A stretch of DNA of 8,622 nucleotides, taken from Pseudomonadota bacterium. Its GTDB lineage: Bacteria > Pseudomonadota > Gammaproteobacteria > Competibacterales > Competibacteraceae. Of the stretch, positions 1-8,622 are shown piece after piece (the stretch's first letter is position 1; each line of letters starts with the position of its first letter). The stretch covers positions 1-8,622 of the forward strand of contig JAGTSD010000056.1 of NCBI GenBank assembly GCA_018262135.1, given 5' to 3'. Under the pieces are notes generated by a model that was not told the origin of the DNA, searched no databases, and saw nothing but the letters and a program-made list of their open reading frames with translations. The translations under genes and the position numbers were made by a program.

Positions 1-69
1 TTCGGAAGATTGCGCGGGTTTCATAGGTTTAAAACTAACCCAAGCGGTGATTCCGGGTCAAGCACCTGT

Positions 70-145
70 CCACGGAAGACACGGAAAACACGGAAGAAAA
101 TTAAAAATTTTTATTCTTTTTCCGTGCCTTCCGTGTTTTCCGTGG
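70..145. repeat. Imperfect inverted repeat of CACGGAA heptamers
   Basis: Two 26-base arms (70-95 and 120-145) are reverse complements at 23 of 26 positions and flank a 24-base AT-rich centre. The left arm is itself a 9-base-period repeat, CACGGAA followed by two purines, three times over. The transcript could fold into a long stem just upstream of the cytochrome b gene. Similar CACGGAA/TTCCGTG repeats occur between genes in various environmental bacteria (recollection, not checked). It could be a dispersed non-coding repeat or a terminator for a gene left of the window. The remainder of 1-179 shows no supportable gene; the open frames across it are accounted for by the repeat. Confidence 0.75.
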
Positions 146-179
146 ATAATGGTTTTTTCATCGAAGCGAGGAATCCAGC

Positions 180-854
180 ATGTCTGAAAACCCAACAACT
201 TTGCACACCGTCAAGGTCTGGGATTTGCCGACCCGGCTGTTTCACTGGACGCTGGTGGCGCTCATGATCGTGCAATGGCTGACCGCCGAGCAAAGCAGCA
301 CCATGGATTACCACGTCTGGGGCGGTTACGCGGTGCTGGCGCTGGTGCTGTTTCGGCTGATCTGGGGATTCGTGGGCAGCGAAACCGCCCGCTTCAGCGA
401 TTTCGTGCGCGGGCCAGGCGCGGCGCTGGAGTACGTCAGAGCGATGCTGCGCGGCGAGACGCCGCACTATCTCGGCCATAATCCGATGGGCGCCTGGTCC
501 ATCGTGGCGCTGCTGATCTTGCTGCTGATTCAGGCGGTCACCGGGCTGTTCGCCAACGACGATATCCTGATCGAGGGGCCGTTGTACGCCTGGGTGTCGA
601 AAGGAACCAGCGACTGGTTGACCACCGTCCATAAGCTCAACTTCAATCTACTGTTGCTGGTCATCGCCGTCCACATTTCGGCGGTGCTGTTCTACCTGCT
701 GGTCAAGCGCGAAAACCTGATCCATCCGATGCTGAGCGGCCACAAGCGCCTGCCGCCGGAACTGGCCCAGCCGGCCCCGCGCCTCGTGAGTCCATGGCGG
801 GCGTTAGCGGCGCTGGCGGCGGTAGGAGTGGCGGTCTGGTCGCTGGTGCGTTGA
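180..854 (+). CDS. Cytochrome b561-like membrane protein (cytochrome b/b6 domain)
   Basis: This 224-residue integral membrane protein belongs to the bacterial cytochrome b561 / Ni-Fe hydrogenase b-type cytochrome family (established family: four-helix heme b subunits passing electrons between quinones and periplasmic carriers). About four hydrophobic helices are visible, near residues 22-36, 47-66, 105-125 and 155-175, with another hydrophobic stretch at the C-terminus (about 206-222). Candidate heme-ligand histidines are H22 (RLFHW), H45 (DYHVWGGY), H151 (TVHKLNF) and H165 (AVHIS). The GHNPMGAWS segment at 99-107 is typical of the family. A GCGAGGA ribosome-binding site at 166-172 lies 7 nt before the ATG. 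The gene converges on a cytochrome c' gene; the two families are often neighbours, so cytochrome c' is a plausible redox partner (inference). Confidence 0.9.
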   Translation: MSENPTTLHTVKVWDLPTRLFHWTLVALMIVQWLTAEQSSTMDYHVWGGYAVLALVLFRLIWGFVGSETARFSDFVRGPGAALEYVRAMLRGETPHYLGHNPMGAWSIVALLILLLIQAVTGLFANDDILIEGPLYAWVSKGTSDWLTTVHKLNFNLLLLVIAVHISAVLFYLLVKRENLIHPMLSGHKRLPPELAQPAPRLVSPWRALAALAAVGVAVWSLVR

Positions 855-873
855 GCGGGCGGAGCGGAAACGA

Positions 874-901
874 GAAAGGCCATGCGCAAGCATGGCCTTT
901 C
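874..901. terminator. Hairpin between convergent cytochrome genes
   Basis: A perfect 12-bp stem (874-885 with 890-901) closes a GCAA loop, a stable GNRA-type tetraloop. It starts 20 nt after the cytochrome b stop and lies 28 nt beyond the cytochrome c' stop, so it could end transcription from both sides. No clear T-run follows on either strand beyond the TTT within the stem, so Rho-independent termination is likely but not certain. Confidence 0.6.
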
Positions 902-929
902 GAGTCGAGAGTTTCTGGCGAGGACTGGC

Positions 930-1397
930 CTAATCCTTGCGGAATTCGTCGTGGCAGGCTTTGCAGGTTTCGGCGGTCTTGCCGAATTGCGCCTTGATCG
1001 CCTTTTCGTCGCTGCCCTTGGCGACTTCGGCCAGCTTGGCCGCCTCCTGTTGGAAGCTGTCCATTTTATTCTTGAACTCGGCCGGTTTCGTCCAGATTTC
1101 CGGCTTGGCCTCGGTGTTCTTCACCACGTCCGGCCCGGTGCCCTTCGGAAAACCCTCGAAGGTCGCCTTGCTCATCATTTCGACATACTGGGCGTGGCGG
1201 GCCACGGCGGCGGCGTCGAATGGAATTTCGCCCTTGACCATCGCGCCGATGGGCTTGAAGTTCCAGCCGATAACGGTGTAGACCGACTGCCGGTATTTGA
1301 CCACGTCTTCCGGCTTCTGGTCAGCCGCGCTGCCGGTCGTCAGTACCCCCATGCCCAGGATGCCGCCCGCCAACATCATCGCCCATGGCTTGTTCAT
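930..1397 (-). CDS. Cytochrome c' (class II c-type cytochrome), periplasmic
   Basis: The product is 155 residues: a signal peptide (about 1-24, ending in GSAA) followed by a four-helix class II cytochrome c. The heme is attached by C145-K-A-C-H149 near the C-terminus (CKACHDEFRKD), as in cytochrome c', with the conserved Arg four residues after the His. The N-terminal helix carries KYRQS followed by GWNFKPIGAMVKG, which is characteristic. By alignment from memory with the Alcaligenes protein, a Tyr (in QSVYT) replaces the usual distal Leu16, as in Allochromatium cytochrome c'. Family members bind NO and CO and may protect against nitrosative stress. A start at 1460 is possible, but the ATG at 1397 is preferred: GGGGAG lies 6 nt upstream and the signal peptide begins there. 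The 93-nt gap up to the cupin stop shows no clear promoter. Confidence 0.93.
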   Translation of the reverse strand: MNKPWAMMLAGGILGMGVLTTGSAADQKPEDVVKYRQSVYTVIGWNFKPIGAMVKGEIPFDAAAVARHAQYVEMMSKATFEGFPKGTGPDVVKNTEAKPEIWTKPAEFKNKMDSFQQEAAKLAEVAKGSDEKAIKAQFGKTAETCKACHDEFRKD

Positions 1398-1490
1398 CGT
1401 TTGCTCCCCATTGTGATTAAACAGGTCTGATACAGGATCATCTTGCCACAGGCCCGACATTTTGCAAGGTCAAACTGAAACCAGGCTGAA

Positions 1491-1838
1491 TCAGCGGGCG
1501 TTACCATCGCCTTCAAGATGCAGCGCCAGCCAGATCGCCGGCGGATGTGCGCTGGTCCATTCCACCCGATGCCGGCAATGCGCCGGAATCCAGACGTAAT
1601 CGCCCGGCGTCAGGTGGCGCGCGCCGTCCTCGTCGGCGAAGCGCAGCCCGGCCCCACCTTGCAGCAATACCACCCATTCGTCTTCATCCTGGTCGTACCA
1701 TTCGCCGGGCGGGGTAGCATGGCCGATGGAAATGATGCGCTCCAGCCGGCAGGCGCCGGTTTGCAGCAGGGTGTCGAACCGTTCCGCTGACAAGGCGGTC
1801 GGGATGCCGGTAAACAAGTGGCCGGTGCTGGGAATCAT
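1491..1838 (-). CDS. Small cupin-domain protein
   Basis: This 115-residue soluble protein is a single cupin barrel. Motif 1 runs over about residues 39-61 (GHATPPGEWYDQDEDEW...LLQG). The usual HxH is missing there, but acidic residues and E54 remain. Motif 2 is clear: P78-G79-D80, P85, then H87 and H90. The WYDQ-E-EWV pattern marks a widespread subgroup usually annotated only as cupin domain-containing. The reduced set of His ligands leaves metal binding and catalysis open; the substrate is unknown. The start has a GGAG about 10 nt upstream. The gene is divergent from the hydratase/acyltransferase gene across 115 bp, so control may be shared (inference). Confidence 0.88.
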   Translation of the reverse strand: MIPSTGHLFTGIPTALSAERFDTLLQTGACRLERIISIGHATPPGEWYDQDEDEWVVLLQGGAGLRFADEDGARHLTPGDYVWIPAHCRHRVEWTSAHPPAIWLALHLEGDGNAR

Positions 1839-1953
1839 CAGAGTCGAACTCCAATTGTCAGCAATGTTGCAATGCGGAATCGGCTAGAATCTCCGATAGC
1901 CGCTGAATCACTCAAAGAATCAGCCTGCGACGCCTGCTTTGGGAGGAATTGCC

Positions 1954-3348
1954 ATGAACGCCGACACGATGACCAACCGCACCTTCGCCGAGATCGAGAT
2001 CGGCGAAAAGGCCAGCTTGACCCGTACCCTGAAACCGCTGGATATTCAACTCTTTGCCACGCTGACCGGCGACCTGAATCCCACCCACCTGGACGAAAAC
2101 TTTGCCCGCGAGCATCAGGCCGGTCAACGGGTTGGCCACAGCATGTGGGTGGCCAGTTTGCTCTCGGGGCTGTTTGGCTGCCAGTTGCCGGGGCCAGGCA
2201 GCGTGTTCGCCAGCCAGTCGTTCCGCTACCTGCGGCCGGTCCATCTGAACGATACCCTCACCCTGACCGCCGAGGCGCGGGAAAAACGCCCGGACACCCG
2301 GACTGTGGTATTCGCCTGCACCGCTGTCAACCAGCGCGGCGAGACGGTGATGGAAGCCACGGTCGAGGTGGTCGCGCCGGCGGACAAGATTGTCGCGCCC
2401 CGGCCCGAACTGGCTGCGATGGCGATTCAGACCCATGACAAGTTCAATCGGCTGATTGACTATTGCGCTCCGCTGCCCGATATCGTCACCGCCGTCGCCC
2501 ATCCCTGCGACCAGTCCTCGCTCACGGCAGCGGCGGAGGCGGCGGAGGCCAGTCTGATCCTGCCGATTCTGGTCGGGCCGGCGGACAAGATTCGCGCCAC
2601 GGCGGACAAGCACCAGATTGATATCAGCCGCTTCGAGATCGTGGACGTTCCGCACAGCCATGCCGCCGCCGCCAAAGCGGTGGAACTGGTGCGCAACGGT
2701 CAGGCGGAAGTGCTGATGAAGGGCAGCCTGCACACCGACGAACTGATGCACGAGGTGATGCGCGCCGATACCGGGATTCGCACCGAGCGCCGGGTCAGCC
2801 ATGTGTTTTGCATGGACGTGCCGTCCTATCACAAATTGCTGCTGATTACCGACGCCGCGATCAATATCTATCCCGCGCTGGACGACAAGCGCGACATCTG
2901 CCAGAACGCCATTGATCTGGCCAGGATTCTGGGGATCGAGATACCCAAGGTAGCGATTCTGTCGGCAGTGGAGACTATCAGCGTCAAGATCGCCTCGACG
3001 ACCGAGGCCGCTTCGCTGTGCAAGATGGCGGACCGGGGGCAGATCACCGGCGGGCTGCTGGACGGGCCGCTGGCGATGGATAACGCGATTAGCAAGGTGG
3101 CGGCGGAGATCAAGGGCATCAAGTCCGAGGTGGCGGGCGATGCCGACATTCTGCTGGTGCCCGATCTGGAAGCCGGCAACATCCTGGCCAAGCAGCTCAC
3201 CTTCATGGCGCAGGCCGATGCCGCCGGCATCGTGCTGGGCGCGCGGGCGCCGATCATTCTCACCAGCCGCGCCGACAACGTCCGCACCCGCATGGCGTCC
3301 TGCGCGGTGGCGGTGCTGATCGCTCACACGCGGCGCGGCAGCCGGTAA
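1954..3348 (+). CDS. Bifunctional enoyl-CoA hydratase / phosphate acetyl(butyryl)transferase
   Basis: This 464-residue protein has two domains. Residues about 11-152 are a MaoC-type hot-dog hydratase with the catalytic D40 and H45 in [14 protein letters not shown], followed by GHSMW. Residues about 165-460 are a phosphate acetyl/butyryltransferase domain, recognisable by [48 protein letters not shown] and [11 protein letters not shown]. The known fusion should hydrate enoyl-CoA to 3-hydroxyacyl-CoA and exchange acyl-CoA with acyl-phosphate. Roles in short-chain acyl metabolism or supply of PHA monomers are inferred. An open frame runs back to a TTG at 1939, but the ATG at 1954 is chosen because GGAGG (1942-1946) sits 7 nt before it. 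The acetate kinase and enoyl-ACP reductase genes that often accompany this family are absent here. The last 25 bp overlap rluE on the other strand. Confidence 0.92.
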
Positions 3349-3923
3349 CCACTGGGATCAAGCTGGCGGCGCTCGGGCGCGACTACGGTCAGTTCCCGCC
3401 ACTGGCCGGGCGCCAGCCCATCCAGGGTCCAGTCGCCGATCCGGTAGCGGATCAGGCGCAAGGTCGGATGACCGACGGCGGCGGTCATGCGCCGGACCTG
3501 GCGGTTGCGGCCCTCGCGCAGGGTGATTTCCAGCCAGGCGGTGGGGATCGCCGCCCGGTACCGAATCGGCGGATCGCGCGGCCACAAGCCGGCCGGTTCG
3601 GCGATGCGCCGGACGGTGGCGGGCAAGGTGGGGCCATCGTTCAACTCGACCCCGCGCCGTAACCGCTCCAGAGCCAGGTCGTCAGGGATGCCCTCTACTT
3701 GCGCCCAATAGGTCTTGGGCCGTTGGTGGCGCGGGTGGCTGAGCCGGGCCTGCAACGCGCCATCAGCGGTCAGGGCCAGCAGGCCCTCGCTGTCCCGGTC
3801 CAGCCGGCCGGCGACGTACACGCCGGGGATAGCCAGATACGCCGCCAGCGTGGGCCGCCCGGCGGTATCGGTGAACTGGCTCAGCACGCCATAGGGCTTG
3901 TTGAACAGGATCAGCCGCGGCAT
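3324..3923 (-). CDS. rluE: 23S rRNA pseudouridine synthase (RluE-type)
   Basis: This 199-residue enzyme of the RsuA/RluB/E/F family isomerises a uridine in 23S rRNA (U2457 in E. coli). The N-terminus reads [14 protein letters not shown], close to E. coli RluE, and the catalytic Asp is D42 in [12 protein letters not shown]. Further RluE-like signatures are [20 protein letters not shown], and [21 protein letters not shown] in the C-terminal part. There is no N-terminal S4 domain, as expected for RluE. The ATG directly follows the TGA of the patatin gene (TGAATG), and only a weak GGCAGG lies upstream, so translation is probably coupled. The 3' end overlaps the convergent acyltransferase gene by 25 bp. 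Confidence 0.93.
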
Positions 3924-6173
3924 TCAAAACAGCCTGCCCAGCATCAAATACAGCGAAGCGTCGCTCTTGGCCAGGCCGCCGGCCAGGTAAAGCGGTCCCA
4001 GCGGCGTATCCGCGCCCAGGAACAGGCTGCCCGCTGGAATTAGCGAATCGAGGGTGATCTCGTCGATGGCGTTCCAGGCCCCGCCGACTTCCAGCGAGCC
4101 ACCTGCGTAAAGGGGGATGGTAAATGCCGCCGAGGCGTTATCGAGTCGATACATGTAGATGAGTTGGCCAAGACCGGCGTACTGCCCTGAGATCTGGCCC
4201 GCCTGGTAACCCGACAGGTTCAGGAATCCTCCCAGTAGAAACAGATCCTGAACGCCCAGATCCCCCGACAGCCTGCCAGCCAGAATCGTTCGCGGAATGA
4301 GCGTCTGCTTGCCCCAGGTGTAAGCCTTGGCGGCGCTCAGGCTGAGCGTGCTGAAATTATTGCTGGCCCCCAGCGCGGTCAGGGAGTCGTAGAAAACCAG
4401 ATTGGCGTAATAGCCCGAGGTTGGGAAGTTGAGGTTATCCAGCGTGTCCGCCGCCCAGCGAATCGAATAACCGCCATCGTCGAAGCTGCCTTCATTGATT
4501 GTGTTCTCGTTAGTAGAGATTTGGCCAAAGCGGAGATCGTTCTTGCCAGGACCATACCGCAAACCCAACGACAGCCGGCCCCAGTGCTCCAGATTGCGCC
4601 CCACTTCCATGCCGATGTTGGCCCGATAGATTCGGAAGCTGGCGTTGTCCTCGTTGGAATCGTCGAGCAAATCCAGGTTGTATTGTTGGTAGCTGAAGTA
4701 GGGATTGATGAAGTATTCCTGGGCCGCGTCGAGCGGCTGGTAGAAATCGGTTTCCAGTTTGATATTGCCGCCGATCTGAACGAAGTTACGCCATTGTCCA
4801 CCGAGGGAGTTGATCTTGGACATGGTGTAGGCGACGCTGAGGTTGAACAGGGAATCTCCCTTCATGTTGGCGCCGAGAAAGAGCCCAAAATTGAGGGCGT
4901 TGGTGCCAATGTGCTGCTGCGTGGCCTCGACCACCAGCCCGGTTTTGCCATCCTTTTCGACCAGCGAGTAGGTGACCTGCTGGAAATCACCCATGCCGTA
5001 GATAATGTTGAGATTGCGATTGAGTTCCTCGGGATCGAGCGGTTCGCCTGGCTTGACGTTCAGTTGCTTTTCGATGACCTGGTCGGACAGCCGGGTAGTG
5101 TTCTTGATCCGGATGAAATCGATGACCGGCTGGTGATTTTCGGGCAGCTCCGGCCGCCCGGCCAGATGCGCTTGATAAGCGGCCAGCGATAACGACAGTT
5201 GGCTCAGTTCGCCCCGCTTGTCATTGGCCGCGGCGTAGCCGATGGTGACCGCTGCCCGGGAGCGGTCGAAGGCAATACTGGAAATATCCCCCATATCGGG
5301 TGTGATCAGGATGTCCCGGCGCCCCAGGGTTCTGATCTGTTGCTGGGCGTTGCGCACGGTCAGAATGGAGGTGAGTTGCCCCGTGATGGAGAGCAGCGAA
5401 TTCAGTTCGCTGGCGGGAGCCAGCGGCGAGCCCACATCCACCGCGATGATGACATCCGGGCGACAGAGTTCCCGCACCACATCCACGGGGATATTGTTCG
5501 ACACGCCGCCGTCCACCAGCAGCTTGCCGTCCAGTTCGACCGGCACCAGGGCGCTGGGGATGGACATGCTGGCGCGCATCGCCATGGCCAGATCGCCGGA
5601 TTTCAGTACCACGGGCGCGCCGGTAGCCAGATCGGTCGCCACGGCCCGGTAGGGAACCCGCAACTGGTCGAAGTCGCGAATTTTGGCGGCCGGGAGCGAC
5701 AGTTCCTGCAGCAACAGCAGCAGGTTCTGCCCTTGCAACAGCCCTTGGGGAAGCTGCACCTGGCCGCCCTTGATACCGACGCCGTTGTTCGTCAGGAGAA
5801 CGCGCTGTTGCTGTTTGGTGCGGAAGGGTAAATCGGCGCGCGGTGGCCCGTCGGTGAACGCCGCCGGCCAGTCGATGCGTTGTACGGTCTTGGTCATTTC
5901 CTCGGGGGTCATGCCGGCTGCATACAACCCGCCGATGATCGATCCCATGCTGGTGCCGGCGACGCAGTCGACCGGAACGTGCAACTCCTGCAGCATCTGG
6001 AGTACGCCGACGTGGGCGATGCCACGCGCCCCGCCACCGCCTAGCACCAGGCCGACGCGGTGCCGGCCCGGCGCAGTGCCGGCAGTGCTGATCATCGGAG
6101 GACCGGCCAGGGCGAGCAGGGACAGGACAAAAACTAAACCGGATAGCAAGCGTTGCATTCGAGGGTTGCGCAT
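3924..6173 (-). CDS. Patatin-like phospholipase with POTRA and outer-membrane beta-barrel (PlpD-like)
   Basis: This 749-residue protein has a signal peptide (about 1-32) and a patatin domain (about 38-230). The oxyanion loop is GGGGARG (45-51), the nucleophile is S75 in G-T-S-M-G, and the dyad Asp is D221 in DGG. A POTRA-like segment follows at about 350-420 (FIRIKNTTRLSDQVIEKQL, then DPEELNRNLNIIYGMGDF), then a BamA-type barrel to the C-terminal Phe (LMLGRLF), a usual outer-membrane insertion signal. This order is that of type Vd (PlpD-like) autotransporters, which display or release a phospholipase at the cell surface. All catalytic residues are intact. Two starts are possible (6173 and an ATG five codons on), neither with a good ribosome-binding site; the longer is kept because it adds positive charge to the signal peptide. 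Substrate and whether the lipase is released are unknown. Confidence 0.92.
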   Translation of the reverse strand: MRNPRMQRLLSGLVFVLSLLALAGPPMISTAGTAPGRHRVGLVLGGGGARGIAHVGVLQMLQELHVPVDCVAGTSMGSIIGGLYAAGMTPEEMTKTVQRIDWPAAFTDGPPRADLPFRTKQQQRVLLTNNGVGIKGGQVQLPQGLLQGQNLLLLLQELSLPAAKIRDFDQLRVPYRAVATDLATGAPVVLKSGDLAMAMRASMSIPSALVPVELDGKLLVDGGVSNNIPVDVVRELCRPDVIIAVDVGSPLAPASELNSLLSITGQLTSILTVRNAQQQIRTLGRRDILITPDMGDISSIAFDRSRAAVTIGYAAANDKRGELSQLSLSLAAYQAHLAGRPELPENHQPVIDFIRIKNTTRLSDQVIEKQLNVKPGEPLDPEELNRNLNIIYGMGDFQQVTYSLVEKDGKTGLVVEATQQHIGTNALNFGLFLGANMKGDSLFNLSVAYTMSKINSLGGQWRNFVQIGGNIKLETDFYQPLDAAQEYFINPYFSYQQYNLDLLDDSNEDNASFRIYRANIGMEVGRNLEHWGRLSLGLRYGPGKNDLRFGQISTNENTINEGSFDDGGYSIRWAADTLDNLNFPTSGYYANLVFYDSLTALGASNNFSTLSLSAAKAYTWGKQTLIPRTILAGRLSGDLGVQDLFLLGGFLNLSGYQAGQISGQYAGLGQLIYMYRLDNASAAFTIPLYAGGSLEVGGAWNAIDEITLDSLIPAGSLFLGADTPLGPLYLAGGLAKSDASLYLMLGRLF

Positions 6174-6206
6174 GGAATGGAACCCAAAATGGTTGTCCGT
6201 GGGAAT

Positions 6207-6230
6207 ATTCAGTATTCAGCGGAAATTCAG
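6207..6230. repeat. Three ATTCAG hexamers in a divergent promoter region
   Basis: ATTCAG occurs at 6207-6212, 6214-6219 and 6225-6230 in the 129-bp AT-richer gap between the patatin gene and the Trp-rich repeat gene. The region must carry promoters for both, yet no convincing -35/-10 pair at normal spacing was found on either strand. The hexamers could be regulator half-sites, but chance is quite possible. Confidence 0.3.
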
Positions 6231-6237
6231 AAAGTTT

Positions 6238-6306
6238 ATGCCAGGATTACCAGCAAAGTACGATGAAAATTTTGCAAAGGCCGATGCGGCGGGGTTGATT
6301 CCATGA
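6238..6306 (+). other. Possible 22-codon upstream ORF overlapping the next start (ATGA)
   Basis: An ATG at 6238 opens a 22-codon frame (begins MPGLPAKYDENF, ends AAGLIP) whose TGA at 6304-6306 overlaps the ATG of the repeat protein at 6303 in an ATGA junction, a layout typical of translational coupling. Only a weak purine stretch (AGAAAG) precedes the ATG, with a 3-nt spacer, which is short. The composition is unremarkable and no family is recognised. It may be a leader ORF or an accident of an open frame that extends antisense through the patatin gene. Confidence 0.25.
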
Positions 6307-6716
6307 GCGACAAACAATTCGAATCCGAATCCTTGCCTGGTGGCCTGGTGGCCACAGATCTTGAGGCACGCGAACGGCGAGAGTTTCTACTGAGCCTGGG
6401 CAAATGGTCGAAGGCGGTTATCGGCGGCGTCCTGCTGGGCGGAGTGCTGGTTCCTGGGCAGGAGGCCAGAGCGCAAGGTGGCGCTGGTCTTTGGTACAAC
6501 TCCGGCCGCGGCTGGGGCGGGTGGGTCCAGCAGCCCTGGGGCTGGTATGACGGACCGAGCTGGTATGATGGACCGCGCTGGTATGACGGACCGCGCTGGT
6601 ATGATGGACCGTACCGGCGTCGCCGGCCGTACTGGCGCGGCCACGGCTGGTATAACGGCCCCCGGCACGGACATCCCTGGCATAACGGCTGGCATAACGG
6701 CTGGTATAACCGCTGA
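6303..6716 (+). CDS. Tat-exported Trp-rich W-[Y/H]-[N/D] repeat protein, candidate RiPP precursor
   Basis: The 137-residue product has a twin-arginine signal: R25-R26-E-F-L, two lysines, a hydrophobic stretch (about 38-51) and a likely cleavage after A57 (ARA/QG). The mature part (58-137) has no cysteine and 13 tryptophans. Nine three-residue motifs begin with Trp and end in Asn or Asp: W64YN, W81YD, W87YD, W93YD, W99YD, W116YN, W126HN, W130HN and W134YN. The middle four sit in WYDGP repeats and the last three in WHNG/WYNR units, around a basic RRRR linker (105-108). Aromatic-X-Asn/Asp motifs are what cyclophane-forming radical-SAM enzymes modify in known Xye/Grr-type peptides. That this protein is such a substrate is inference from the motifs and from the SPASM-like gene 7 nt downstream. 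A weak GGCGGGG (6288-6294) lies 8 nt before the ATG. Alternatively it is an unmodified Trp/Gly-rich exported structural or metal-binding protein. Confidence 0.85.
   Translation: MSDKQFESESLPGGLVATDLEARERREFLLSLGKWSKAVIGGVLLGGVLVPGQEARAQGGAGLWYNSGRGWGGWVQQPWGWYDGPSWYDGPRWYDGPRWYDGPYRRRRPYWRGHGWYNGPRHGHPWHNGWHNGWYNR
6540..6611 (+). repeat. Four 18-bp tandem units encoding WYDGP repeats
   Basis: Four 18-base units starting at 6540, 6558, 6576 and 6594 each encode a WYDGP unit plus one variable residue. The Asp codon alternates GAC, GAT, GAC, GAT. Units 1-2 and 3-4 form two 35-base blocks (6541-6575 and 6577-6611) that differ at a single base (AGC versus CGC, Ser to Arg), which points to a recent 36-bp duplication. 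Confidence 0.9.
6677..6712 (+). repeat. Three 12-bp tandem units encoding WHNG/WYNR
   Basis: Units start at 6677, 6689 and 6701. The first two are identical (CTGGCATAACGG) and the third differs by C to T (His to Tyr) and G to C (Gly to Arg). The shorter period and Asn in place of Asp set this array apart from the 18-bp array, so the repeat protein carries two independently expanded arrays. Confidence 0.85.
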
Positions 6717-6723
6717 CCTCCCC

Positions 6724-7530
6724 ATGAACGATTTCATCTATGAGGTTCCCGTGGAGCGGGTTTCTGCCTACCGGGGCCGGCGGCTCATCGTTCGCGCCCA
6801 CGAGCCGGCGACGCTGATAACCGCCCTGGCGGACGAAGAATTTGAACGCCTCGTCGGCTTGCGGCTGTTGTCCCTGGCCGCCGATTCCGAACCATTGAAT
6901 GCCTGGGCGCCGGAGCTGCCGGTGGATTTGGTCATGGCCGATCCTGGCGCCGAGTTTCCCCTGTTGTATCGGCACGCCGAGTTGCTCGAACACCATCCGG
7001 TGCGGGTCATGATCCCGGTTCGGCCCGGATTCGCCAGGGCGGTCAAGGTCGCAGTATCGCTGCATTTCGCGGTATGGCTGGAGCCGGGCCAGCCCGAACC
7101 GGCGCTGATCGAGGAACTGGCCGAGGTCATGGCGTTCTATCTGCGCCAGCCGACCGTCGCCCAGCCGGTCGAATTCTTTCACAGCACGCTGCTGGGCTTT
7201 TATCACGACGATCCGGCGCCTCTGTGGGTGGTGCTGGATGCCGATCCCGAATGTTTGCGTCATGTCGCCGACGAAGGCGCGGAATCCTTGCCGGGACGAC
7301 TGGCGGGCGTCGAAGCCACGGTCGCGGCCGATGCCGATCTCGGCGAATGGATCGCTCGGGTGCTGGCAACGGCGGACGAGTGCCGGAACTGCGAATTTCT
7401 CCCGAGTTGCGGCGGCTATTTCAAATGGCCGCGCCGTGATTACGACTGTGCGGGCGTCAAGCGGCTGTTCGGTCTGTTGCGGGAGGCCGCCGCCGAATTG
7501 CGCCGCGATCTCGGCTCGGCCCCGGTCTAG
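6724..7530 (+). CDS. SPASM-like, pseudo-radical-SAM protein next to the repeat peptide
   Basis: This 268-residue cytoplasmic protein has no signal peptide or membrane segment. Its C-terminus carries C220-x2-C223-x5-C229-x12-C242 (ECRNCEFLPSCGGYFK, then YDCAGVK), resembling the auxiliary iron-sulfur part of SPASM domains in radical-SAM peptide maturases; C177 is the only other Cys. The radical-SAM CxxxCxxC motif is absent. The middle (about 66-175) reads like the later half of a radical-SAM barrel, with hydrophobic segments (VRVMIPV, AVWLEPG, LWVVLDADP). Pseudo-radical-SAM/SPASM proteins are known in other peptide-modification systems. A function as peptide-binding or maturation partner for the upstream repeat protein is inferred. 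The ATG lies 7 nt after the upstream stop with no Shine-Dalgarno, suggesting translational coupling. The same frame is open back to a GTG at 6478, but that part is a frame-shadow of the repeats. Confidence 0.82.
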   Translation: MNDFIYEVPVERVSAYRGRRLIVRAHEPATLITALADEEFERLVGLRLLSLAADSEPLNAWAPELPVDLVMADPGAEFPLLYRHAELLEHHPVRVMIPVRPGFARAVKVAVSLHFAVWLEPGQPEPALIEELAEVMAFYLRQPTVAQPVEFFHSTLLGFYHDDPAPLWVVLDADPECLRHVADEGAESLPGRLAGVEATVAADADLGEWIARVLATADECRNCEFLPSCGGYFKWPRRDYDCAGVKRLFGLLREAAAELRRDLGSAPV

Positions 7531-7536
7531 CGAAAG

Positions 7537-7564
7537 TTCCCGCCGGAGCTGATGCCGGCGGGAA
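7537..7564. terminator. Perfect 10-bp hairpin after the SPASM-like gene
   Basis: TTCCCGCCGG (7537-7546) pairs perfectly with CCGGCGGGAA (7555-7564) across an 8-base loop, starting 6 nt after the stop. Downstream sequence is only moderately T-rich (TGGTTCTTC), and on the other strand ACTTTC follows. It is a probable terminator, perhaps serving both converging units. Two weaker palindromes follow: CGGTCGACCG then TTTT (7584-7597), and a 6-bp stem with a 5-nt loop (7597-7613). Confidence 0.7.
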
Positions 7565-7616
7565 TGGTTCTTCGGCGACTGGGCGGTCGACCGTTTTAGT
7601 AGCGATACTACTATTA

Positions 7617-7838
7617 CTACTTGTTTCGGCCGTAGATGTTGCCGACCACGGCGCCCGCCGCGCCGCCGATCAGCGCGCCGGTCCCGGCGCTGCCGCCGCT
7701 TAACCCGCCGATGGCCGCGCCGCCCAGCGCGCCGATGGCCGCGCCGCTCATCGTGCTCTGCTGGGTGGGCGTCATGTTGGTGCAGCCGACGCCGAGGGCG
7801 AGAGCGGGAACCGCGAACAAATAACCGATCTTCTTCAT
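7617..7838 (-). CDS. Glycine-zipper lipoprotein (OsmB-like)
   Basis: The 73-residue product has a short signal (MKKIGYLFAVPALALGVGC) with a cysteine at 19, then TNMTPTQQ and a glycine-zipper region (about 31-70) of GAAIG, GG and GALIGGAAGAVVG units. Such proteins are small envelope lipoproteins, sometimes stress-induced; the exact role is unknown. The lipobox is atypical, with Gly rather than Leu/Val at -3 (LGVGC), so lipidation is likely but not certain. AAGGGG lies 6 nt before the ATG. The start is 3 nt after the stop of the upstream gene, so the two are almost certainly co-transcribed. Confidence 0.85.
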   Translation of the reverse strand: MKKIGYLFAVPALALGVGCTNMTPTQQSTMSGAAIGALGGAAIGGLSGGSAGTGALIGGAAGAVVGNIYGRNK

Positions 7839-7841
7839 GAT

Positions 7842-8318
7842 TTACCCCTTGTTCGCCTTGGGCGTGCTGGATTCTTCGGGCTTGGCCTTGGGTGCGACCA
7901 TCTGGAACCAGATCACTTCGATAATTGGCTGCTGCTGCTTTTCAGGATTGGCCTTGTAGTAGGCATCCACGGTTTCCACGATCTGCGGTACGGCCATGCC
8001 ATCCAGGGCCTTGACCAGTTTGGCGACGGTGGTGCGGTGCTTGGGGTTGGGGCCGCTCAACTGGTATTCAACCATCGCCATGTTCAGGATGCCGAGCACG
8101 TAGGCGCGTCTCTCGGTATCGGTGGCTTTCGACCAGTGCTCGCCGGTGGGCATCCGCCATTCCTGCTTGGCCGGCGTTGCGGATTGCGCCGATGGGGATT
8201 CGGCGGGCTTGGCCGCCGGTTTCGCCGGTTCGGCGGCCTGGGCGATGGACCAGCCAGCCAGGCCGGCGACCAGGCCGAGCGATAGCAGGGTTGTCGTGAA
8301 ACGACGTTTTGTCAGCAT
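7842..8318 (-). CDS. Secreted protein of unknown function, possibly Rap1a/Tai-like
   Basis: This 158-residue protein has a signal peptide (about 1-28, ending AQA/AE), an Ala/Pro/Lys-rich linker (about 29-52), a compact domain (about 53-140) and a Lys/Pro/Ser-rich tail. The domain features RRAYVLGILNMAMVEYQL, then VETVDAYYKANPEK and QQPIIEVIW. The YYKANPEK...PVIEVIW style recalls small Rap1a/Tai-type periplasmic domains, but this is only a resemblance. There are no cysteines and no catalytic motif I recognise. A longer frame starts with GTG at 8384, but the ATG at 8318 is chosen: AGGAGG lies 6 nt upstream and the signal peptide begins there. It precedes the glycine-zipper gene by 3 nt and follows a membrane protein gene by 69 nt, so all three may share a transcript. 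Confidence 0.8.
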   Translation of the reverse strand: MLTKRRFTTTLLSLGLVAGLAGWSIAQAAEPAKPAAKPAESPSAQSATPAKQEWRMPTGEHWSKATDTERRAYVLGILNMAMVEYQLSGPNPKHRTTVAKLVKALDGMAVPQIVETVDAYYKANPEKQQQPIIEVIWFQMVAPKAKPEESSTPKANKG

Positions 8319-8387
8319 GGAGTTCCTCCTTGGGAGGGTGGGTTTGGAAAGGAAATTCTGATGCGGTTCGCGGCGCTTCGCCACATC

Positions 8388-8622
8388 CTACGGGCTGGCC
8401 TGGGCCGCCTTGCGTTCCTGCCAGCGGTTATAAATCCAGACCCCGACGAAATAGGCGATGGTAACCCCAAGGCCTATCCAGATTAGCAGGGGCGCGAGGT
8501 TGGAAAAGGCCACATTGATGATCCCGCCGGTGAGGATGAAGGCGGCGACCACGCACAGGCGCCAGTCGTAATAAATACCGGCCAGATAGGCGCTCAGCGC
8601 GATGACCAGCGTGATGATGAAC
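8388..8622 (-). CDS. Small integral membrane protein, partial (5' end beyond window)
   Basis: The frame enters from the right edge and ends at TAG (8388-8390), giving 77 C-terminal residues. It shows two to three hydrophobic segments (FIITLVIALSAYLAGIYY, CVVAAFILTGGIINVAF, LLIWIGLGVTIAYFVGVWIY) and a basic cytoplasmic-looking tail (NRWQERKAAQASP). I do not recognise the family. It lies 69 nt upstream of the secreted unknown on the same strand and may start the same operon. No N-terminus, start codon or promoter is visible. Confidence 0.75.
   Translation of the reverse strand, partial: FIITLVIALSAYLAGIYYDWRLCVVAAFILTGGIINVAFSNLAPLLIWIGLGVTIAYFVGVWIYNRWQERKAAQASP

Follow-up and report, generated by a model that had tools for sequence, protein, structure and literature searches.

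A candidate cyclophane peptide system with a Tat-like signal: four gene families around a Trp-x-Asn/Asp repeat protein

What is made of a tryptophan-rich protein that carries nine Trp-x-Asn/Asp (W-x-N/D) motifs behind a signal resembling that for twin-arginine translocation (Tat), and which enzyme, if any, acts on these motifs? The question is raised by two adjacent genes, here called A and P, in contig JAGTSD010000056.1 of a Competibacteraceae bacterium, of which positions 1 to 8,622 were analyzed (hereafter, the window; contig C404 of draft genome G000). Comparison across genomes shows four gene families: the repeat protein A, with its recurrent motif; P, a partner lacking the CxxxCxxC motif; M, a radical S-adenosylmethionine (radical-SAM) enzyme in which CxxxCxxC is present; and N, a SnoaL-like protein. 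These families share a recurrent gene order and occur together, and the window apparently contains part of this conserved set, which is split here. We consider it probable that M staples Trp to the Cβ of Asn/Asp in A, with P as a partner subunit, before Tat export. The original prediction for this locus was a ribosomally synthesized and post-translationally modified peptide (RiPP) of the triceptide type, with P beside the precursor; comparative support for this idea is strong, while P is not the maturase, M is a separate gene, N joins the set, and the cut-offs of the Grr families are missed.

The repeat protein and its signal

The features of A in the window are as follows.

6303..6716, plus strand: A, W-x-N/D repeat protein of 137 aa with a Tat-like signal, proposed precursor (from its sequence, homologues and leader family)
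6375..6410, plus strand: Tat-like motif and conserved block RREFLLSLGKWS, a candidate signal for export that would also be the RiPP leader (pattern in 59/59 A open reading frames, ORFs)
6465..6473, plus strand: ARA, proposed signal-peptidase site ahead of the repeats (from sequence, with cleavage putative)
6492..6713, plus strand: repeats carrying the nine W-x-N/D motifs, where cyclophanes are proposed (from the motif count, shuffles and the wider A set)

The 137-aa translation bears out the predicted count of nine motifs, four W-Y-D and five W-x-N, in a protein with no Cys. In the 79 residues taken as the mature portion, all nine Asn/Asp lie exactly at Trp+2, where 1.47 matches are expected and none of 100,000 shuffles reached nine (maximum 7); the remaining spacings from 1 to 8 gave zero to three matches each, with none at +3, and 4 of the 13 Trp lie outside any W-x-N/D motif. 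The same spacing dominates the wider set of 60 A ORFs (59 distinct, as L144 repeats L040), with 428 of 483 Asn in the mature parts at Trp+2, Cys in the mature part of a single ORF, and as many as 17 motifs in one ORF (L076). A thus fits the triceptide motif, an aromatic residue followed at i,i+2 by Asn, Asp, Arg or Ser. Both the choice of Asn/Asp and the spacing fit the chemistry of the Grr-type enzyme OscB, which is reported to link Trp C7 to the Cβ of Asn/Asp at i,i+2 (PMC11002830).

The signal pattern RRx[FV][LMV]..[LIA][GSR][KR]W[SG] was found in all 59 distinct A ORFs, a count that is partly circular because a similar pattern had served to select the seeds; at loci outside the family, A genes that were first spotted by their W-x-N count or by RRxF[LM] carry it as well. 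The conserved block exceeds what a Tat motif needs. A loose [AVSTG]xA site precedes the first motif in 57 of the 59 ORFs, and by sequence window A has the Tat layout of an RRxFL motif, a hydrophobic stretch and an AxA site. Tat export of A, also part of the original prediction, is predicted from the RRxFL motif by itself, with the curated Tat model giving no backing (see below). No Pfam family fits A, and NCBIfam at E<=1 listed nothing for window A, including no GrrA (TIGR04260).

A partner without the cluster motif and a separate radical-SAM enzyme

Two features mark the partner in the window.

6724..7530, plus strand: P, radical-SAM/SPASM-like partner without CxxxCxxC, 268 aa, starting 7 nt past the A stop
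7381..7449, plus strand: cluster of four Cys (C220-C223-C229-C242) with CGGYFKWP, a candidate site for one auxiliary [4Fe-4S] cluster (from alignments)

The start of P at 6724 agrees with the 7-nt interval first described, as does the lack of a radical-SAM core: CxxxCxxC is absent from window P, from the P alignments and from P of all 17 loci outside the family (5'-truncated in L151 and L152). The C-terminal cysteines, spaced C220-x2-C223-x5-C229-x12-C242, are invariant in a 40-row alignment; in the wide P set C223, C229 and C242 are invariant and C220 is conserved in at least 90%. This cluster aligns with the last SPASM cysteines of M. The label "SPASM-like", which the original prediction gave to P, holds for the four-Cys cluster and the predicted fold but is weak by profile, TIGR04085 giving window P 14.8 bits, below its cut-off of 27. 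Better support comes from fold comparison of an AlphaFold model, in which P shows a partial TIM barrel with a SPASM-like C-terminus, and P is accordingly predicted to have a radical-SAM/SPASM fold. Pfam has no match for P at E<=0.1, and NCBIfam models touched by P are only of the SPASM and radical-SAM maturase types, with scores far under the cut-offs. Unlike the structures of the anaerobic sulfatase maturase and ChlB, P has no CxxxCxxC and one four-Cys cluster instead of the full SPASM set. TIGR04150, a "pseudo-rSAM" family of Bacteroidales, offers a precedent for P but is missing from the NCBIfam matches of window P at E<=1. Additional partial or broken copies of P lie at contig starts in Competibacter phosphatis (L146 1-576) and bin HKST-UBA199 (L145 4-345). 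P of L131 is 69% identical to window P.

In G013 a gene with the radical-SAM motif CNAACEYC directly follows P and runs into the contig end. The orthologous M gene of the window's genome (P0174) encodes a 382-aa protein with CNADCEYC and lies on a separate contig, C297. CxxxCxxC and the cysteines of the SPASM region are invariant in a 22-row alignment of M. Of the 37 family genomes 26 have M, as do two further family genomes of a wider set. The check proposed with the original prediction, for a CxxxCxxC gene nearby or fused in other genomes, gave a positive answer, with M after P at 17/17 outside loci and in G013, and with M at a second A locus in the window's own genome; no fused form was seen.

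The closest families among the matches listed for M are the sulfatase maturase (TIGR03942, 131 bits; cut-off 349), the dynobactin maturase DynA (NF041298, 123 bits; cut-off 450), DarW (112 bits) and DarE (96 bits), the last two again far under their cut-offs. GrrM/OscB (TIGR04261) aligns over positions 3-339 with 90.6 bits, and its cut-off of 310 bits was passed in none of 38 genomes. M falls below the cut-offs of all five families and so seems to form a separate group. It is like DynA, DarW and DarE in that these give its second to fourth best NCBIfam scores, and darobactin is reported to contain Trp cross-links (PMC11002830). The proposed precursor here, a long repeat protein that carries a Tat-like signal, sets the system apart from those of dynobactin and darobactin. 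A shares with the Grr precursors its Gly-rich repeats. Among four other A proteins, the best GrrA score is 18.8 bits, a weak match from L140 that stays under the GrrA cut-off of 31 bits.

These scores bear on whether M might modify the A motifs by other chemistry, for example, by forming a C-N or ether bond between Trp and Asn, by linking residues at i,i+3, or by epimerization or desaturation. The three best-scoring families, ahead of GrrM, are the sulfatase maturase, DynA and DarW, which do carry out different reactions, but the placement of every Asn/Asp of window A at Trp+2 and none at +3, along with the predominance of this spacing in the wider set, matches the i,i+2 link of OscB, and we regard such other chemistry as unlikely.

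Gene order and co-occurrence

The gene set was followed in 37 Competibacteraceae genomes, within 59 genomes searched for P, and beyond the family by a scan in which two peptide patterns, derived from the P alignment, were run against one genome per species (84,980 species). Draft bins among the genomes blur absences, relatedness among genomes inflates the significance of the co-occurrence tests, and numbers of homologues are to be read as lower bounds. The scan returned 47 loci, 17 of which, from 16 genomes, lie outside the family (L133-L143, L147-L152). Their hosts include Pyrinomonadaceae and another Acidobacteria bin; Thiodictyon, Thiorhodococcus, Lamprocystis and another Chromatiaceae bin; and Desulfobacteraceae, Accumulibacter, Verrucomicrobiota, Armatimonadetes and Hydrogenedentes. 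At these loci P is directly followed by M in all 17, A precedes P in 14 and N precedes A in 12; L151 and L152 begin inside P. A clear A leader was found in 14 of 15 outside genomes searched, with a marginal match in the Hydrogenedentes genome. Fifteen of the 17 loci have overlapping frames for P and M, and gaps of 3 nt (L138) and 6 nt (L136) separate the two genes in the others, counts that depend on start codons picked by hand.

Within the family, P was found in 28 of the 59 genomes, all of them among the 37 family members, and A lies upstream of P in 26 of 28 loci. The exceptions are L041 in G019, considered below, and L028 in G008, where the contig begins inside an A-like W-x-N tail; in G002 (L047), A lies 214 nt ahead of the matched part of a broken P. 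Across all P ORFs and pieces, within and outside the family, A is upstream in 41 of 49; six of the remaining eight are cut by contig starts (L028, L145, L146 twice, L151 and L152) and two are not (L041 and L149). Apart from G013, the flanks of the family P loci show no M-type radical-SAM gene, and P and M lie on different contigs in 23 of the 24 family genomes having both; 4 of the 37 have P only, 2 have M only and 7 have neither. When 369 genomes were sampled evenly from the class, P and M turned up in the same 3 genomes, all family members. L025 has a radical-SAM gene other than M at a distance of 4-5 kb from P.

A-type genes also accompany M, in 17 of 29 M loci scanned to 1.5 kb (G024 counted twice; G013 being the A-P-M locus), including three A genes beside M in G036. 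In the window's own genome the second A has 7 motifs, and between it and M lies N, an exported-looking protein matching the SnoaL-like family PF13474 (61.7 bits, cut-off 22; 49.7 bits for N of Thiorhodococcus). N occupies the place between M and A in G000, G001, G002, G025, G028 and G036, and lies upstream of A-P in G012, G022 and G031. Most simply, the order N-A-P-M is ancestral, and M and spare precursors split off in Competibacteraceae.

The overlapping frames bear on a second alternative, in which M alone is the cyclophane maturase and P has a separate job, for instance, supply of electrons through an auxiliary cluster or a second modification. The four retained Cys of P are compatible with a single auxiliary [4Fe-4S] cluster, P has a higher rate of evolution than M (ratio of nonsynonymous to synonymous substitutions, dN/dS, of 0.22-0.31 vs 0.08-0.11), and each gene was detected without the other in a few genomes. 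Against this stand the overlap of P and M at nearly all outside loci, the purifying selection on P, and the draft state of every genome with just one of the two, so that we judge a separate role for P to be quite improbable.

A third alternative, in which A serves unmodified as a surface or structural protein rich in Gly and Trp and its gene neighbors act on another target, we hold to be very unlikely. Gly-rich repeats do occur in structural proteins, and 4 of 76 distinct A ORFs in the loci examined stand alone; each of the other 72 has at least one of N, P and M on its own strand no more than 1.5 kb away. Against an unmodified A, its presence tracks that of P or M in 37/37 Competibacteraceae genomes, the A leader being found in all 30 family genomes that have at least one of these two genes and in none of the other 7 (a marginal match in G014, E=0.003 in a 575-aa frame, was not counted); the leader block is conserved beyond the Tat motif; and the same gene order recurs in distant phyla. 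The repeat protein thus accompanies SPASM or radical-SAM genes, and the contrary pattern, regular occurrence of A apart from such genes, which the original prediction had named as speaking against it, was not observed.

Further precursor loci were seen. In the window's genome, contig C176 carries N followed by an A-type gene (L186 604-1738), apart from P and M and near a gene that presumably encodes an RND efflux pump; similar N-A pairs occur in other genomes (L187-L191, L193-L196 and L200), in the Armatimonadetes bin on another contig (L201), and in the Verrucomicrobiota bin apart from the P-M locus (L202 1788-2816), where N starts with the Tat-like MNRREAI. Two A-type genes with 12 and 13 W-x-N/D motifs (L197 4936-5481 and L198 4448-4975) lie near what we take to be a gene for DNA gyrase subunit A, and none of N, P and M is present up to 1.5 kb from them. 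In G013 a degenerate A-type gene (L199 6485-6952) retains 2 W-x-N/D motifs and has W-V-T-P or W-x-x-P-N-Q repeats instead.

The proposed pathway and the rest of the window

In the pathway that we propose, a complex of P and M would read the leader block RRxFLxxLG[KR]WS, so that the export signal would double as the RiPP leader. M would generate a 5'-deoxyadenosyl radical, abstract the β-hydrogen of Asn/Asp and join that carbon to the indole, with a loss of 2 Da per motif. Stapled A would then leave the cell via Tat, a route that may be used because a multiply stapled chain could not be threaded through the Sec pathway. Removal of the leader by signal peptidase would make a dedicated protease or transporter unnecessary, and the exported SnoaL-like N might handle mature A in the periplasm. 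In Competibacteraceae, M and the extra precursors would have been relocated and act in trans. The full scenario, with a dead radical-SAM paralogue P presenting a Tat-signal leader to M, A stapled up to 17 times, exported folded, cut by signal peptidase and passed to N, in six phyla and with several precursors in trans, we put forward tentatively, as possible rather than probable.

Several observations weigh against the stapling of A by M and P before Tat export. For A, TIGR01409, the curated Tat model in NCBIfam, does not list window A at E<=1 and gives the sister A of L051 14.3 bits vs a cut-off of 16.7, and the cyclophane chemistry is one that we infer from sequence. For P, Foldseek by itself ranks transaldolases first (E 7e-4) ahead of the first radical-SAM match (E 0.0027); the profile match between P and M covers C-terminal columns only (115 columns, E 3.5e-5, probability 72%); in G002 (L047), a member of the window's genus, the coding sequence of P is broken between two frames; and G029 and G035 have additional incomplete copies of P. 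For M, the sulfatase maturase, DynA, DarW and DarE all score above GrrM. The set is also incomplete in places: P lacks M in 4 of 28 genomes (G008, G018, G027 and G029, 82-99% complete) and M lacks P in 2 of 26 (G030 and G033); G019 has P without an adjoining A, yet an A with 16 motifs beside M; 12 of the 29 M loci have no A within 1.5 kb or in the wider flanks, several contigs ending nearby; the four solitary A ORFs include L192, at a contig start, and the degenerate L199; and no N is near L136, L140 or L149. Finally, the presence of P at all 17 outside loci holds by construction because the loci were found by P.

The triceptide systems XncB, OscB and MscB likewise encode a radical-SAM/SPASM enzyme with CxxxCxxC together with an aromatic-x-residue precursor. 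Apparently unlike them, the set described here has a separate partner P without the cluster motif and a SnoaL-like N. It differs further in its Tat-like leader, in having up to 17 motifs per ORF and enzyme and precursor often at separate loci, and in a cross-link that is predicted. No title retrieved describes the N-A-P-M set, and nothing was retrieved for "GrrM" with "radical SAM" or "Competibacter" with "radical SAM", in a coverage that largely leaves out subscription journals; the 2020 and 2022 triceptide papers may already list this group.

If the proposal is correct, it would join RiPP chemistry to Tat export, with one signal peptide serving as leader and export tag; it would give a testable reason for Tat use by a cofactor-free protein, namely, that staples cannot be threaded; it would assign a working role to radical-SAM-like proteins without the SAM cluster; and it would place maturases and precursors at different loci, where locus-based mining overlooks them. 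Competibacter and Accumulibacter inhabit phosphorus-removal sludge. A test on the native protein is possible because culture-collection strains of purple sulfur bacteria, Lamprocystis purpurea DSM 4197 and Thiorhodococcus mannitoliphagus DSM 18266, are among the hosts.

Elsewhere in the window, a patatin and POTRA/Omp85 gene (3924-6173, minus strand) lies divergently upstream of A-P, and a minus-strand ORF of 738-784 aa, compared by length and place only, occupies the same position in most of the 28 P loci, so that the A-P neighborhood looks conserved. Farther upstream are a fused MaoC-type hydratase and phosphate acetyl/butyryltransferase (1939-3348, plus strand; NF006045, 698.6 bits) and ordinary electron-transfer genes, of the cytochrome b561 type (180-854, plus strand) and for cytochrome c' (930-1460, minus strand). 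Downstream of P, the minus strand encodes a glycine-zipper protein assigned by Pfam (7617-7838) and a 180-aa protein without a Pfam or NCBIfam match (7842-8384); several relatives have a minus-strand ORF of 141-172 aa in roughly the same position downstream of P.
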